Shown here piece after piece: positions 9,625-31,197 of a stretch of 36,758 nucleotides of DNA (position 1 is the first letter of the stretch; each line of letters starts with the position of its first letter). The notes beneath the pieces were generated by a model. That model searched no databases. It had not been told where the DNA came from and saw nothing but the letters and a program-made list of their open reading frames with translations. The translations under genes and the position numbers were made by a program. The stretch comes from Candidatus Kuenenia stuttgartensis (GTDB taxonomy: Bacteria; Planctomycetota; Planctomycetia; Planctomycetales; Planctomycetaceae). The stretch spans positions 1-36,758 of the forward strand of contig CAMDRI010000039.1 of assembly GCA_945906725.1 (NCBI GenBank). Direction: 5' to 3'.

Positions 9625-9840
9625 GCTAGGGCCATCCGTGAAATCGTCGCCGCCTTGCTCAACAAGGCGGAGCCAAGACGACAGGCGTCATTGATCGGTT
9701 TTGAGTCAGTTCTGAATTCTAAGAGTCCGCTCGCGATTCCGGGAGCAAGTCGCGGACAATATAGTCCGCCCAACGTGGCCGACGTAGCTTGCGTCGGTAC
9801 GGACGCTGGCAGCATCCACCAAGCCTCACGAAGGGCAACC
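9625..9840. other. Divergent spacer with two short hairpins
   Basis: It lies between the leftward SirB1-like gene and the rightward lipoprotein gene, and must hold promoters for both. GCGGAC-AATATA-GTCCGC (9752-9769) forms a perfect 6-bp stem. GTAG (9784-9787) heads a small hairpin GCGTC-GGTACG-GACGC (9791-9806). GAAGGG at about 9828 is the ribosome site of the lipoprotein. I could not pick a clear -35/-10 pair. Confidence 0.45.
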
Positions 9841-10839
9841 ATGCAACAATCACCGTTCGTTTTCAACACCCTGTTGGCCATTCTCCTTTTGAGTGGTTGC
9901 TCTTCCAAGCCTGCCGCCCTTCCGAACGCCGTCAATACGGACCGTCCAGCGACGAAACTCGATGAGGTCGAACTCGCGCTCAATTGGTTGCCCGAAGCGG
10001 AACACGGTGGATTCTTCGCAGCGGACGTGCATGGCTTGTTCTCCGAACGCCAATTGAAAGTGAAGATCCTCCCTGGCGGTCCCGGCGTACCGGTCATTCA
10101 AAACGTGGCCACCGGCAAGGTGACCTTCGGAGTCACGAACGCCGATCAAGTACTCGTGCAACGCGCTCAAGAGGCGGACATCGTCGCGGTGTTCGCACCG
10201 ATCCAGAAAAGCCCGCGGTGCATCATGGTCCACAAGAAGTCGGGCATCACCAAATTCGACGACTTGAAGGACATGACGCTGCTAATCAAAGCGAACCAGA
10301 CATTCCTCGGATTTCTGCGAAAGAAGCAACCGTTGACGAACGTGCAGATCGTCGATTACGCCGGAAGCGTCGGCCCGTTCTTGCAAGATGAGAAGATTGG
10401 CCAACAGGCGTACGTCTTCAGCGAGCCGTTTCTTGTTCAGAAGGAAGGAGCCGAACCGCTCAACCTGATGGTCTCGGACATTGGCTTCAACCCGTACACC
10501 AGCGTGCTCATCACGCGAGCGGAGGTCATCGAGAAGCAACCCGAACTCGTCCGCCGCATGGTTGAGGCCTGCCGCTTGGGCTGGCGGAAGTACCTCGATG
10601 AGCCAGAAAAAACGAACGAACACATTCATTCGCTCAACAAAGAGATGGGCTTGGAGATTCTTGCGTTCGGTACACGGACGCTGAAGCCGCTGTGTGAAGC
10701 CGGCCTATCGTCGCCGGACAAACTTGGCGAGATGACGACCGAACGCTGGCAAACACTGGCCGAACAACTCGTCGAAGCCGAAGCACTTAAGGCTGACGCT
10801 GTTGACCCCGCGAAAGCGTTTGACGCCAGTTTCCAATGA
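9841..10839 (+). CDS. NMT1/THI5-like substrate-binding lipoprotein
   Basis: 332 residues from ATG 9841 (GAAGGG seven bases upstream); earlier in-frame starts run through the spacer and are rejected. Residues 1-20 are a lipoprotein signal with lipobox LLLSGC, so the protein should be lipid-anchored. The rest resembles the NMT1/THI5/SsuA-type solute-binding fold: VELALNWLPEAEHGGFFAADVHGLF, ILPGGPGVPVIQNVATGKVTFG, then NADQVLVQRAQ and SGITKFDDLKDMTL. Relatives bind sulfonates, nitrate, or pyrimidine and thiamine precursors for an ABC importer. No permease or ATPase gene is in the window, so the transporter is encoded elsewhere or the protein works alone. The ligand cannot be predicted. The DUF1501 gene begins about 90 bp downstream on the same strand and may be cotranscribed. 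Confidence 0.88.
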   Translation: MQQSPFVFNTLLAILLLSGCSSKPAALPNAVNTDRPATKLDEVELALNWLPEAEHGGFFAADVHGLFSERQLKVKILPGGPGVPVIQNVATGKVTFGVTNADQVLVQRAQEADIVAVFAPIQKSPRCIMVHKKSGITKFDDLKDMTLLIKANQTFLGFLRKKQPLTNVQIVDYAGSVGPFLQDEKIGQQAYVFSEPFLVQKEGAEPLNLMVSDIGFNPYTSVLITRAEVIEKQPELVRRMVEACRLGWRKYLDEPEKTNEHIHSLNKEMGLEILAFGTRTLKPLCEAGLSSPDKLGEMTTERWQTLAEQLVEAEALKADAVDPAKAFDASFQ

Positions 10840-19536: not shown

Positions 19537-19614
19537 ATCAGGCTTTCCAGCCTGACTCGAATGGCCAACACGGCGTCAATCGTTGATCGAGTCAGCCTGG
19601 AAAGACTGACCTAC
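19537..19614. repeat. REPIN-like inverted pair, family C
   Basis: The left arm, CAGGCTTTCCAGCCTGACTCGA, and the right arm, the inverse of GTAGGTCAGTCTTTCCAGGC, are imperfect inverted copies with about 28 bp between them. The right arm's CTAC is at 19611-19614, so on the minus strand its GTAG head contains the hpnD stop codon TAG. It lies between the terminator of the YHS-like gene and hpnD, so it occupies the convergent junction. Confidence 0.7.
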
Positions 19615-20546
19615 TTCGGCAGCAGCTTCTGATGGATCATCGCGTCGGCTGCGATCCACAGCTTGCGCCAGCGCGGCAACGAGACCTGCTGGCGGAAGAC
19701 GTCGAATTGTCGCCGCTCGATTTCACTCAGCAGTCCACCGTAAAGCTGCAACATCGCCTTCATGATCGGCCGGCCGTGAGGCTCCAGACACGGCAGCAGT
19801 TGCTTGGCCGAGGCATAGAACGATTTTGCTCGCTCGACTTCAAATGCCATCAGGGCACGAAATCGGGCGTCGCAGCGCTGAGCGATCAAGTCCTCGAAGG
19901 TGACGCCAAATCGCTGCATGTCTTCGGCCGGCAAATACACACGCCCCGCCGTTGCATCTTCGCCGACGTCGCGCAGGATGTTCGTCAGTTGAAATGCGGT
20001 GCCGCAGTCGATCGCGCGCTGCACGGCCTCCGAGCCGTGAAAGCCCCAGATATGAATGCAACACATCCCGACCGCTCCGGCGACGAGGTAACAGTAGTCT
20101 GCGAGTTGATCGAAGGTTTGAAAACGATTTGTCTCGACTTGAGAATTGAGTTTTGCGTTTTCAAATTCCAAATCCGAGCGTACTCCGCGCACCACGGCGA
20201 ACAAATGCTCGTGCGGAATCCCGAATCGTTGCACGACGTCGCGCAGCGCCGGAAGTACCCTGATGGCTGGCTCCGACCAGTCGGCCATTCCGGATGCCAA
20301 CCAGTCCGGCCGCAAGACGTTCGTAAACAATTCCTGCCAAGCCTCCAAATCTATGATGCGTTGCGACAGCCGACGTTGCGAGTCATCGCCCAAGTCGTCC
20401 GTCACGCGCATGAAGGCGTACAACGCGCACATCGCGCGAAACTGCGGAGCCGGCAGCCCACAGAACGAATAATAAAAATTCCCGGCCGTCCGTTTCGTCA
20501 GCCGGATGCAGTGGTCGTAGCAATCTTCGAGCATCGTGCGACTCAT
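19611..20546 (-). CDS. hpnD: Presqualene diphosphate synthase HpnD
   Basis: 311 residues, a squalene/phytoene-synthase-fold enzyme. In the HpnCDE route HpnD joins two farnesyl diphosphates to presqualene diphosphate; squalene then feeds hopanoids or, in planctomycetes, C30 carotenoids. Evidence: two Asp-rich Mg-diphosphate motifs, MRVTDDLGDD (residues 46-55) and LRDVGEDATAGRVYLP in the second half, with FDQLADYCYLVAGAVGMCCIHIWGF and the C-terminal LYGGLLSEIERR that are typical of HpnD. I chose ATG 20546 (MSRTMLEDCYDHC) because it overlaps the hpnC stop as ATGA; an in-frame start at 20636 lies inside hpnC. The stop TAG belongs to a repeat. HpnE is not in the window. Confidence 0.9.
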   Translation of the reverse strand: MSRTMLEDCYDHCIRLTKRTAGNFYYSFCGLPAPQFRAMCALYAFMRVTDDLGDDSQRRLSQRIIDLEAWQELFTNVLRPDWLASGMADWSEPAIRVLPALRDVVQRFGIPHEHLFAVVRGVRSDLEFENAKLNSQVETNRFQTFDQLADYCYLVAGAVGMCCIHIWGFHGSEAVQRAIDCGTAFQLTNILRDVGEDATAGRVYLPAEDMQRFGVTFEDLIAQRCDARFRALMAFEVERAKSFYASAKQLLPCLEPHGRPIMKAMLQLYGGLLSEIERRQFDVFRQQVSLPRWRKLWIAADAMIHQKLLPK

Positions 20547-21493
20547 GCCGCCACCTTCCGCCCGATCGCTCGGCCGAGGCACTTCAGCAACAGACCGGCC
20601 GCATCCCACTTCGTGACAACGGGCCGCTGCTCCCAAACTCGATAGCCGATCGAGGCCACGCGATCGCAGACCTTCAAGCCCCCTTCGCCGAACAACTCGA
20701 TGACGACTTGCAGGCGACCACGCAATCGAGGGGCCAACTCACGCACCGCCAACAGCAACTCGCGAGCACGCTCGACCTCGAATCGCATCAGTTCGACAAA
20801 CGCGTCGTTCGTCACTCGATTCGCCAACTCTTCTCGCGAGTATCTGAACCGTTCGCAGTCTTGGAGCGGCAAGTACGTCCGGCCGATCTCCGCATCGCGA
20901 GCAACATCCTGCCAGAAGTTCGCCAACTGCAAGCCGGTGCAAACCGAATCCGACAGCGCGACCGACCGCTCGTCGTCGCAACGACACAGACGCAGCACGA
21001 TGCGGCCAACTGGATTCGCGCTGTTCCGGCAGTAGCCGAGCAAGTCGTCAAAGGTGTTGTACGAGGTGATTCGCTGATCCTGCTCGAACGCTGTCAGCAA
21101 GTCGTCGAACGGATCACGCGAAAGATCGAATTCCTTGGCCGTCCGTTGCAGCGCGATGAAAACCGGATGCGCGATCTCCTCGCCGGCCCAACATCGAGCC
21201 AACTCGCCGCGCCACCAGCCCAGCAACCGGGTCGAGAGTTCCGGATCGCCCAACTCGTCTGCCAAGTCGTCCGACCAGCGACAATAGGCATAAACATTGA
21301 AGAATGACTGCCGCAACTCGCGCGGCAATAGGCGTGCGATCAACGGAAAATTCTCGTAATGCGAGGTCGCCAACTGCCGGCAATACGCCTCCGCTTCGAC
21401 CAATGTTGAACGAGACGGAGAGGCTTCGGCCGTGACAACGTGAGGGCACCAGCGACGTAGTTCTTCCAGGAGTTGGGCCGATTTAGCGGACAT
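20543..21493 (-). CDS. hpnC: Hydroxysqualene synthase HpnC
   Basis: 316 residues, paralogous to HpnD. HpnC converts presqualene diphosphate to hydroxysqualene, which HpnE would reduce to squalene. Visible signatures are EAEAYCRQLATSHYENFPL near the N-terminus, FNVYAYCRWSDDLADELGD with the first Asp-rich motif, and LQLANFWQDVARDAEIGRTYLP with the second. C-terminal features (LIRF-type FEVERARELL, KVCDRVASIGYRVWEQRP) match HpnC more than HpnD. ATG 21493 is the only reasonable start, since an in-frame TAG lies just upstream; GAGG sits directly against it, an unusually short spacing. It is followed by hpnD with a 4-base overlap. Confidence 0.9.
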   Translation of the reverse strand: MSAKSAQLLEELRRWCPHVVTAEASPSRSTLVEAEAYCRQLATSHYENFPLIARLLPRELRQSFFNVYAYCRWSDDLADELGDPELSTRLLGWWRGELARCWAGEEIAHPVFIALQRTAKEFDLSRDPFDDLLTAFEQDQRITSYNTFDDLLGYCRNSANPVGRIVLRLCRCDDERSVALSDSVCTGLQLANFWQDVARDAEIGRTYLPLQDCERFRYSREELANRVTNDAFVELMRFEVERARELLLAVRELAPRLRGRLQVVIELFGEGGLKVCDRVASIGYRVWEQRPVVTKWDAAGLLLKCLGRAIGRKVAA

Positions 21494-23247: not shown

Positions 23248-23793
23248 TCAAATCTGCCCATCCAGTGCCATTTGATGGAAGCAGTGCGTTGTCTTCTCCT
23301 GGTTTTCGAGCAGCCAGTCGATCGACGGTTCGTTATGCATGGCTTTGTGAATCGCCTTCGCGATCGCCGCGCGGTGCGTCTGAAACAGAATCGCGTGGTC
23401 GATCTTCTCGTGAACGACGCTCGGATCGAGCCACACGGAGACGATGATCCCCAGGTCGTTGGCCTTCTCTTTCGGGATGTCGCCGGCTCGCACGGAATCC
23501 AGTACTCCGTTGGCAATGGCGGCCTGCACGGTCCCCATCAGGATGTTCGTGTACTTCTCGTTGTTGACCGTGACCTTGCTGACCATCACGGTCACCGGTC
23601 GGACCTGCACGTCGCAGTTCAGGATCGCGAAGACCTTTGAGTGACCCTTGGACTGATCGCCGATCAGATTGGCAATCGCGTTGCCGACTGGTCCGTCCAG
23701 TTCGCCGATCACAACTTCGGGTTCGGCGGCCGACCAGGCGGGGGCGGCTTCGACCAAGGCTTCTCCGGTGCGCATCACAATTCGCTGACTCAT
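23248..23793 (-). CDS. Formaldehyde-activating enzyme (Fae) homologue
   Basis: 181 residues, from ATG 23793 with AAAGGA six bases upstream. Fae joins formaldehyde to tetrahydromethanopterin as methylene-H4MPT. The sequence aligns along the whole family: RTGEALV at the N-terminus, VVIGELDGPVGNAIANL, KGHSKVFAILNCDVQVRPVTVMVSKVTV, MGTVQAAIANGVLDSVRAGDIPKEKANDLGIIVSVW and a C-terminal block ending NQEKTTHCFH. In the canonical enzyme the residue before the I-D-L-I-I-G strand is the catalytic His17; here the aligned residue is Glu24 (AEPEVVIG). It is therefore probably a Fae-like paralogue whose activity is uncertain. No mtdB, mch, ftr-fhc or other H4MPT gene is nearby. It reads convergently with der and divergently from the zinc-ribbon gene. 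Confidence 0.82.
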   Translation of the reverse strand: MSQRIVMRTGEALVEAAPAWSAAEPEVVIGELDGPVGNAIANLIGDQSKGHSKVFAILNCDVQVRPVTVMVSKVTVNNEKYTNILMGTVQAAIANGVLDSVRAGDIPKEKANDLGIIVSVWLDPSVVHEKIDHAILFQTHRAAIAKAIHKAMHNEPSIDWLLENQEKTTHCFHQMALDGQI

Positions 23794-23972
23794 GGTGGTC
23801 CTTTCGATGTCGGTGGCGGATGATCACGCTTTGTTCAACAAAGGGTAGGTGCCGCGCCACAATCGCGGCAAGCATCGGGATGCCTCTCCCAAACAGAGTG
23901 TCTTTCCAAGTTCCTCCGAAGTTTTCGTTTTCCATCCCTTGTCGGCATCGGGAGTCTGTTAGGTCGATTCGC

Positions 23973-28935: not shown

Positions 28936-31197
28936 TCAGCGAGCAGCGGCAGATTGCCCCTCAGTCGCCTCATCCTGGAAGAAGTCGATCTTTCCGGTGA
29001 CGACATCGTAGAGCGCGCCGACAACGGCGATTCGGCCTTCGTGGACCAGTCGGTTGATCGTGAGGCTTTCCCGTTGGATGCGTTCGACGGTGTGGATGAC
29101 ATTTCGGCGGGCGACGGCTTCGATGAAATTGGCTCGATCATTCTCAGACCATTGCTCCAGATGTTGGCACGATGGCAAATCGATCGCACCTTGTATCTCG
29201 CGAATGATCGACTCCAGATGCTGACAACCGGTGGCTTGCTCGGCGGTGGACTGCGAGCCAGCGAGGTTGACGGCGGCCGTCACCGCGCCGCATTGAGTGT
29301 GTCCGACAACGACAATCAGCTTCGCTCCGGTGACGGCACAGCCATATTCCATGCTGCCGAGTATCTTATTGCTGATGATATTGCCCGCGATGCGGATGCT
29401 GAAAATGTCTCCCAATCCCAGATCGAAGATCAACTCGGATGGCGTGCGTGAATCAATGCAACTCAAGAGCACCGCCAACGGGTGCTGCCCCAAGGCGGTC
29501 GCTTGGAGTTGGCGATCCAAATCCCGCGTCAATCGCTTTCCCGTGCGAAAGCGCTCGTTGCCCTCTTCGAGAATCTTCAACACTTGAGCCGGCGTGAACA
29601 GCTCTTGCAGATCGCGGGTCGAATAATCCACATATTGAATCTCGTTCTGAAATTGATACTTGTCCCGAAAGCCGCGAAGGCTGACTTGCACGCCGCGGAT
29701 TGGCGCGGTCTGCTCCTTGAAATCACGAATCAGGCTGAGGATGTCCGGGTCGATGTAGACCGTGTTGGCACCGTCCAACAGGATGTGGCCGCCGCGTGGG
29801 ATCGAATTGAAGACTTTGTCCAGAGCCGCTCGATTCAGAAAACTGACCTGGTTGGCCAGTTCCACATGCAAGACATCGCCACCCAAATGCCGTTCCACAA
29901 TGGTCCTGAGCGGCCGCCGCAGATTGCTGCTCAAGCTAAACGCGAGACTGACGGCCAGACCGATCAAGATGCCGATCAGCAAGTCGGTCATTACGATCGA
30001 AACGACGGTCAGGATGAACGGCAGGAACTGAAAGTGGCCTTCGTTCCACATCTGTCGAAACAACGCGGGACTGGCCAGCTTGAGACCGGTCACCAACAAA
30101 ATCGCGGCCAGACACGACAGCGGAATGAAGTTGAGTGACGTCGACAAGAACATCACCGACACCAACAACAACAAACCATGCACGATCGTTGCCAGCTTGG
30201 TCTGTCCGCCGGCGTTGATGTTCACCGAACTCCGCACAATCACCGATGTCACCGGCAGACCGCCGATGAGTCCCGCCAGCACGTTGCCGATCCCTTGCGC
30301 CACCAACTCGCGGCTGGGCGGCGATGAACGCTGCCGACGATCCAGCTTGTCGACCGCTTCCAGATTCAACAGCGTTTCCAGCGAAGCAACGATCGCAATC
30401 GTGATCCCGGCGGTATACACGGCGGGATTCCCGATCTGCGAAAAATCGGGCAGCTTGAGAAACCCCAAGAAGTCCCGCACAGAACTTGAGACCGGCACCT
30501 GAACCAAGTGGCTGGCCTCAATCAGCCACTCGTCTCCCCAATGCTCAAACAACCGCGCCAGTCCGACACCCAACAGCACAACAATCAACGGAGCGGGCAC
30601 GATCGACTTCTTGAGCCTCGGAACCCGGTCCCAGATCACCAGCAGCGCGATCGACACGAGTCCGATGAGGGCCGCGCCTCGATGCAGGTCGCCGATCATT
30701 GCCAGGATTTCCGACAGCGTGTTCTCGTGGTCTGGCTGTGAAAACGACATTTCCCCTTCGGGATCGGTGTCGTGTCCCAGGACGTGCGGAATCTGTTTCA
30801 GTATCAAGATGACGCCGATCGCCGCGAGCAATCCTTTGATGACGCTGCTGGGAACAAACGCCGACAAAACTCCGGCCCGCGCCAATCCCAAGCCAATTTG
30901 GATCAGCCCGCCAATCATCACCGCCAACAAGAACGTCTCGAACGACCCGAGATGTGCGATCTGTGCCGCCACGACCGCCGTCAGCCCGGCGGCCGGCCCA
31001 CTGACGCTCGTGTGCGATTGACTCAGGACGCCGACGACAAGACCGCCGATGATTCCGGCCAGCAGACCTGAAAATAGCGGGGCGTTCGACGCCAATGCGA
31101 CACCCAAGCACAACGGCAGGGCCACGAGAAAGACGACCATGCCAGCGATCAAGTCGCTGGGCACTGTGGCTCTCGAAAAAACTTTGGTCTGGGGCAT
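28936..31197 (-). CDS. SulP anion transporter fused to beta-carbonic anhydrase
   Basis: 753 residues in three parts. Residues 1-430 are a SulP (SLC26-like) membrane domain with about ten to twelve helices (VPSDLIAGMVVFLVALPLCLGVALAS, GLTAVVAAQIAHLG, VIVRSSVNINAGGQTKLA). Residues 440-540 are a STAS-like domain (GGHILLDGANTVYIDPDIL). Residues 550-753 are a beta-carbonic anhydrase: SCIDSR with zinc Cys580 and Asp582-Arg584, and GHTQC with zinc His633 and Cys636, then LIVVVGHTQCGAVTAA. SulP-carbonic anhydrase fusions are known and are thought to import bicarbonate and interconvert it with CO2. Here all catalytic residues look intact, so the enzyme should be active. ATG 31197 gives a normal SulP N-terminus. 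The upstream 31198-31409 has no other gene. Confidence 0.95.
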   Translation of the reverse strand: MPQTKVFSRATVPSDLIAGMVVFLVALPLCLGVALASNAPLFSGLLAGIIGGLVVGVLSQSHTSVSGPAAGLTAVVAAQIAHLGSFETFLLAVMIGGLIQIGLGLARAGVLSAFVPSSVIKGLLAAIGVILILKQIPHVLGHDTDPEGEMSFSQPDHENTLSEILAMIGDLHRGAALIGLVSIALLVIWDRVPRLKKSIVPAPLIVVLLGVGLARLFEHWGDEWLIEASHLVQVPVSSSVRDFLGFLKLPDFSQIGNPAVYTAGITIAIVASLETLLNLEAVDKLDRRQRSSPPSRELVAQGIGNVLAGLIGGLPVTSVIVRSSVNINAGGQTKLATIVHGLLLLVSVMFLSTSLNFIPLSCLAAILLVTGLKLASPALFRQMWNEGHFQFLPFILTVVSIVMTDLLIGILIGLAVSLAFSLSSNLRRPLRTIVERHLGGDVLHVELANQVSFLNRAALDKVFNSIPRGGHILLDGANTVYIDPDILSLIRDFKEQTAPIRGVQVSLRGFRDKYQFQNEIQYVDYSTRDLQELFTPAQVLKILEEGNERFRTGKRLTRDLDRQLQATALGQHPLAVLLSCIDSRTPSELIFDLGLGDIFSIRIAGNIISNKILGSMEYGCAVTGAKLIVVVGHTQCGAVTAAVNLAGSQSTAEQATGCQHLESIIREIQGAIDLPSCQHLEQWSENDRANFIEAVARRNVIHTVERIQRESLTINRLVHEGRIAVVGALYDVVTGKIDFFQDEATEGQSAAAR

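Follow-up and report, generated by a model that had tools for sequence, protein, structure and literature searches.

What does a homologue of the formaldehyde-activating enzyme (Fae) do when the catalytic histidine of the family is replaced by glutamate? This question is raised by a gene in a contig of 36,758 nucleotides from Candidatus Kuenenia stuttgartensis (CAMDRI010000039.1), the whole of which we refer to as the window. The initial annotation had put the reading frame in the right place: it runs from 23793 to 23248 on the minus strand and encodes 181 amino acids. The features on which the argument depends are these:

23248..23793, minus strand: coding sequence of the Glu-type Fae paralogue (Fae3-like), 181 amino acids plus stop, ATG start, assigned by Pfam, NCBIfam and alignment
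23799..23803, minus strand: AAGGA, ribosome-binding-like site just upstream of the Glu-type fae ATG, read from the printed sequence
23722..23724, minus strand: Glu24 codon, column of the catalytic His of canonical Fae (phmmer and MAFFT alignments)
23716..23718, minus strand: Glu26 codon, column of Asp19, a presumed pterin contact (alignment)
23629..23631, minus strand: Phe55 codon, column of Leu48, a presumed pterin contact (alignment)
23575..23577, minus strand: Lys73 codon, column of Lys66, a presumed pterin contact, kept (alignment)
23569..23571, minus strand: Thr75 codon, column of Thr68, a presumed pterin contact, kept (alignment)
23524..23526, minus strand: Gln90 codon, column of Gln83, a presumed pterin contact, kept (alignment)

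Fold and putative pterin pocket of the window protein

Homology to Fae along the length of the protein, which had been proposed from the sequence by eye, was borne out by Pfam, NCBIfam, a PDB search and the predicted fold. The Pfam family PF08714 (Fae) scored 198.7 bits against a cut-off of 27, and the NCBIfam equivalog TIGR03126 passed barely, with 123.8 bits against a cut-off of 118.05. The PDB sequence search retrieved chain 1y5y with an E value of 1.1e-14. An AlphaFold2 model with a pLDDT of 75 (<50 for residues 45-75) was matched to 1y60 by Foldseek (E 3.4e-11) and to 1y5y_B by VIA (Z 15.7, rmsd 2.3, 142 residues aligned). The window protein is thus a member of the Fae family with a predicted Fae fold. 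It is under strong purifying selection, as comparison with 11 relatives gave dN/dS values of 0.012-0.089.

The by-eye placement of Glu24 was reproduced both by phmmer against 1y5y and by a 182-row MAFFT alignment composed of 181 proteins from 193 records, some of them without Fae, plus the 1y5y row. In both, Glu24 stands opposite the His of AHIDLIIG, and the alignment is free of gaps from there to IIG. We take this His to be His17 of canonical Fae, and the pterin contacts in 1Y60 to be His17, Asp19, Leu48, Lys66, Thr68 and Gln83; all six listed positions carry the expected kind of residue in the M. extorquens row. Over the 182 rows the residue in the catalytic-His column is His 68 times, Glu 101 times and Met 13 times; the Glu rows owe their number to 80 loci that were retrieved for their similarity to the query. 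Those loci came from a contig search with the window paralogue (75-99% identity), and their sequence motifs divide them into 56 of planctomycete type and 24 of gammaproteobacterial type.

Of the remaining contact columns, three are largely conserved across the three types. Lys66 is Lys in all 182 rows, and Gln83 is Gln in 181 of 182, including 101/101 of the Glu type. The Thr68 column holds Thr in 97 and Ser in 4 of the 101 Glu-type rows, Thr in 64 of the 68 His-type rows and Thr in all 13 Met-type rows. The Asp19 column is Asp in 66/68 His-type rows and Glu in every Glu-type (101/101) and Met-type (13/13) row, and the Leu48 column of the Glu type is Phe (94/101) or Tyr (7/101). Ile18 is replaced by Pro in both the Glu and the Met type, so that HID becomes EPE in the Glu type, where Glu24-Pro25-Glu26 is invariant in 19/19 dereplicated rows. 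In both paralogue types, Asp-Pro usually stands in place of canonical His116-Trp117. Overall, the window protein shares with canonical Fae (EC 4.2.1.147; 1y5y/1y60, Methylorubrum extorquens) the fold and most pterin contacts, and differs from it by His17 to Glu, Ile18 to Pro, Asp19 to Glu, Leu48 to Phe, His116 to Asp and Trp117 to Pro; in the phmmer alignment it also has two extra residues ahead of the motif.

This pattern fits a Glu-type pocket that would still take H4MPT, with a changed centre of reaction. Since His116 and Trp117 also differ, the pocket may have been reshaped to take a different ligand. An additional acid/base role of the glutamates is arguable, since an invariant Glu-Pro-Glu exceeds what a dead site would need. 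An earlier suggestion that another residue takes over from the histidine found no support: the Glu type has no new invariant His, and its invariant His columns (51 and 170) are common in canonical Fae too.

Residue classes and phylogeny

When 101 genomes of the family were searched with Pfam, Fae was detected in 98, mostly as two proteins per genome, one scoring near 245-255 bits and the other near 190-208 bits; the window protein is of the lower-scoring sort. Dereplication of the alignment at 88% identity left 69 rows, in which each type was uniform at the catalytic column (His 41/41, Glu 19/19 and Met 9/9). A tree of these rows was built without the three motif columns and rooted at the midpoint. 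The Glu clade (support 100/99), the Met clade (100/96) and the two together (100/97) were recovered, and the window protein lies outside the 41 His rows and inside the Glu clade. The residue label needs two changes on this tree, the fewest possible. Judged from these alignments, the exchange of His for Glu is genuine and has become fixed throughout a subfamily rather than being a one-off. The His was most likely lost once, provided that the root, here the midpoint, lies among the His-type proteins. The sister clade carries Met, which suggests that loss of the acid/base function, rather than its replacement, would have been the first step.

Three divergent Fae homologues (L179, L180 and L162) keep the His, in the motif HIN or HIDV, and sit on long branches; the branch that leads to L179 and L180 is very long, and joins of this sort may be false. 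L179 and L180 are the only Fae found in genomes G277 and G257. Between phyla, the Glu type is 73.3% identical versus 57.9% for the His type (36 pairs), and within Planctomycetes the values are 82.1% versus 80.9% (15 pairs). The higher between-phyla identity of the Glu type may reflect gene transfer or tighter constraint. The gammaproteobacterial methanotrophs G101-G104 (L141-L149, L150, L158-L165) carry up to three His-type copies of Fae together with one Met-type and one Glu-type copy.

Genomic context of the Glu type

We used Mch as the marker of the H4MPT pathway. Of 294 Planctomycetota genomes, 28 had a Fae match, and these were exactly the 28 with Mch. The Glu type, called at an E value below 1e-90, occurred in 13 of the 294, all with Mch; these 13 genomes are related, belong to three families (f1, f53 and f74) and are not 13 independent events. 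Twelve of them have another Fae match that scores in the canonical range, the exception being the window's own genome, and 15 of the 28 have matches in the canonical score range only, assigned by score with residues checked in part. Thus, with Mch in 13/13 and with 15 genomes that have canonical-score matches only, the Glu type depends on the H4MPT pathway yet is dispensable within it. A hint in the initial annotation that the gene stands apart from this pathway is not supported, given these counts and the presence of Mch in the window's own genome (G000:C30:28234-29163). Among 299 Pseudomonadota genomes, 17 had a match to Fae, of which one scored under the cut-off and contained stops; one weak match (G360) was left out of the residue classes. 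The Glu or Met type was present in 11 of these genomes (the Glu type in 6), and all 11 hold the His type too. One genome that is 98% complete (G030) has three Fae matches and no Mch match, possibly owing to an assembly gap.

The window's own genome (G000; 5.45 Mb, 92% complete) was searched for a second, canonical Fae, as the initial annotation had proposed. The assembly has none, the window gene being its sole Fae match. Both same-genus genomes examined (G056 and G083) hold both Fae types, and in G056 mtdC adjoins canonical fae. This gene is present in 93/101 genomes of the family by Pfam search, and is absent from G000 by a protein search for MtdC and by Pfam. Because mtdC, the usual neighbour of fae, is absent too, the canonical fae of G000 was probably lost in an assembly gap spanning fae and mtdC. 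When 12 kb of DNA around the same-genus fae was searched against G000, repeat-like protein-coding matches (query 9682-10829) were the only ones obtained and none covered fae or mtdC, so that this search does not locate the syntenic place in G000. Other genomes seemingly have the Glu type only. In G043 and G016 the canonical gene is truncated by the end of its contig, in G062 the contig breaks off shortly after mtdC, and G084 has a partial second Fae match; G036, G069 and G100 have no second Fae match, and in G100 mtdC lies inside its contig.

In the window, the fae gene is alone, flanked by der in convergent and by a zinc-ribbon/WD40-like gene in divergent orientation. Recurrence of der, of the WD40-like gene and of the hypothetical genes next to fae is confined to near relatives. 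The statement that no H4MPT-pathway gene is adjacent holds within the window, where the 20 proteins given to Pfam include no H4MPT-pathway protein other than Fae itself and where tblastn detected no mch or mtdC; as a guide to the genome it misleads, as Mch is encoded elsewhere. By tblastn, mch, mtdC and methylamine-pathway genes were found neither in the window nor in the 80 loci (0/81). Elsewhere in the window, a sulphate-permease-family protein fused to a carbonic anhydrase domain is encoded at 28936-31197 (minus strand), and a tandem pair of squalene/phytoene synthase genes, whose listed ORFs overlap, lies at 19611-21493 (minus strand).

Two of nine proteobacterial Glu-type loci (L132 and L213) lie directly downstream of mgsABC-gmaS-like genes. 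The upstream genes are annotated as glutamine amidotransferase, GlxC, FMN-binding glutamate synthase and type III glutamate-ammonia ligase, a set that we take to be the N-methylglutamate (methylamine) pathway; the L213 copies of these methylamine-type genes are 86-94% identical. This methylamine link was not seen in planctomycetes (window and 80 loci, tblastn), and methylamine genes were found beside 0 of 15 Met-type loci.

A radical-SAM gene is divergent to Glu-type fae, with 41-136 bases between them, in 16 of 24 gammaproteobacterial loci (L091:4998-5876 and 15 others), and is convergent to it in one planctomycete locus (L083:6776-7597). Searches of NCBIfam, Pfam and PDB sequences returned no characterised match for its product. 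The gene occurs in 64/101 genomes of the family; in G033 and G074 its distance from canonical fae is about 7 kb. We considered it as a required partner of Glu-type fae and rejected it: it is absent from all three genomes of the window's own genus (0/3) and is therefore not needed. In the clustered loci, none of the genes next to the Glu type could be identified as a regulator or a chemotaxis gene, although most of these neighbours are without annotation.

Published paralogues and the possible role of the Glu type

Fae paralogues (Fae2 and Fae3), together with the idea that they act as sensors or regulators, are already published, and we draw here on the available parts of the papers cited. M. 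universalis has three Fae homologues, of which fae3 is upregulated almost 10-fold on methylamine. The organism grows normally when fae2 or fae3 is deleted singly, deletion of fae3 has no phenotype on methanol or methylamine, and a Δfae1 strain that retains fae2 and fae3 fails to grow on methanol; a role in transfer between H4F and H4MPT was proposed for fae3 (PMC5023235). In M. alcaliphilum (Methylotuvimicrobium), deletion of fae3 caused no growth defect, fae3 of strain 20ZR did not restore an M. extorquens Δfae mutant, and Fae1-2, for which a folate role was put forward, rescued that mutant on plates only and failed in liquid; no function is known for groups 2-4 of the Fae tree, for which regulatory, sensing or folate-linked roles are suggested (PMC11748545). 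All nine tabulated Methylophilaceae strains have fae2, some have fae3, and one is without a true fae (PMC4109929). Deletion of fae2 slows growth of M. aquaticum on methanol (PMC7356819).

The Fae match on plasmid 1p of Methylobacterium aquaticum 22A (L133) is of the Met type and, being the only match in that plasmid, is presumably Maq22A_1p31155. Given this assignment of M. aquaticum fae2 to the Met type, together with the methylamine link, we infer that the Glu type is the Fae3 of the methylotroph papers, which is known here by its published description. Both are Fae-fold paralogues found beside canonical Fae in organisms with the H4MPT pathway, as are groups 2-4 (PMC11748545), and the methylamine response of M. 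universalis fae3 (PMC5023235) matches the two Glu-type neighbourhoods described above; unlike Fae3 of methylotrophs, the planctomycete copy in the window has no methylamine genes nearby. The Met type (fae2 of M. aquaticum 22A, plasmid 1p) resembles the Glu type as its sister clade, lacking the catalytic His and continuing with Pro-Glu, but has Met in the His column and was beside methylamine genes at none of its 15 loci. The window protein thus adds to a known group of paralogues whose function is unassigned. The available text of PMC11748545 contains none of the terms histidine, residue, catalytic and His17, and that of PMC5023235 neither histidine nor active site; we found no paper in the literature searched that states the residue at the catalytic-His position of Fae2 or Fae3. 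What seems new within that literature is that one residue position divides the family into three clades, together with the probable single origin of the pattern.

We favour, with a probability of about 0.55, the view that the window protein is an accessory H4MPT-binding protein that acts beside canonical Fae and does not catalyze the canonical fast condensation of free formaldehyde. As a member of the Fae3-type branch it would combine the Fae fold with an H4MPT pocket in which most contacts are kept, while the general-acid His has given way to Glu and the following residues to Pro-Glu. It would still bind (dephospho-)H4MPT or methylene-H4MPT. The role that we prefer for it would be to hold or hand over pterin-bound C1 when C1 enters from methylated amines, and the next in order would be to sense the ratio of methylene-H4MPT to H4MPT. 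From the fold, the mostly kept contacts, the lost general acid, the invariant Glu-Pro-Glu, the purifying selection, the company of Mch and, in nearly all cases, of canonical Fae, and the failed complementation by fae3, a probable orthologue, we infer the pterin binding, the lack of condensation activity and the exact role of the window protein. The possibility raised by the initial annotation, that the protein binds formaldehyde or a pterin without condensing them, agrees with the kept pterin contacts and the failed complementation (PMC11748545). Against the accessory reading stands the absence of a growth defect upon fae3 deletion in both organisms (PMC5023235, PMC11748545). A simple story of His loss also has to face the failure of Fae1-2 in liquid (PMC11748545), although both His-type copies of M. 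buryatense, a relative of M. alcaliphilum, keep the His; because Fae1-2 fails too, failed complementation alone is no proof of a lost His.

Three other explanations were weighed. Rather unlikely, in our judgement, is an active enzyme of altered chemistry, in which Glu24 and Glu26 would serve as acid and base in a related reaction, for example C1 transfer between methylene-H4F and H4MPT or the release of formaldehyde from a different carrier. The invariant Glu24-Pro25-Glu26, the low dN/dS and the two methylamine-operon neighbourhoods in proteobacteria are in its favour, as are the H4F-H4MPT transfer proposed for fae3 (PMC5023235) and the folate role put forward for Fae1-2 and suggested for groups 2-4 (PMC11748545); however, deletion of fae3 was silent in M. 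universalis on methanol and methylamine (PMC5023235) and brought no growth defect in M. alcaliphilum (PMC11748545), and the Met of the sister clade cannot act as an acid or base, so that catalysis was not kept there. A sensor or regulator of formaldehyde or the C1 pool, signalling via a partner protein, is less probable still. A catalytic residue lost from a kept pocket, a gene that is alone in the window and the published proposals for Fae homologues (PMC4109929, PMC11748545 and others) would suit such a function, as would the intergenic region of 41-136 bases shared with the divergent radical-SAM gene in 16/24 gammaproteobacterial loci, but the mostly unannotated neighbours of the Glu type in the clustered loci include none recognisable as a regulator or chemotaxis gene.

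It is very improbable that the window protein is a functional canonical Fae after all, its His being dispensable in its own background. The G000 assembly does hold no other Fae though Mch is present. The condensation of formaldehyde with H4MPT also proceeds spontaneously, which counts for this explanation. Nonetheless, G056 and G083 each hold a canonical copy too, and the absence from G000 of mtdC, which adjoins fae in G056, makes a gap likely. Moreover, fae3 did not complement (PMC11748545).

Returning to the accessory H4MPT-binding protein, a wider proposal can be made tentatively, on odds somewhat below even: a single ancient loss of the His may have founded two lineages, Glu and Met, of H4MPT-binding, non-condensing proteins that hold, deliver or report C1-pterins. 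If true, these would be an undescribed kind of carrier-handling protein for the H4MPT pathway, and one residue position would explain why Fae2 and Fae3 do not replace Fae1. That position sorts the 182 rows into three classes that agree with the 69-row tree, and a simple rule follows for telling condensing Fae from its paralogues. Such a rule matters for annotation, as paralogues of unassigned function are annotated as formaldehyde-activating enzymes, the one in the window exceeding the equivalog cut-off by about 6 bits. With it, the question of what Fae2 and Fae3 do becomes directly testable.
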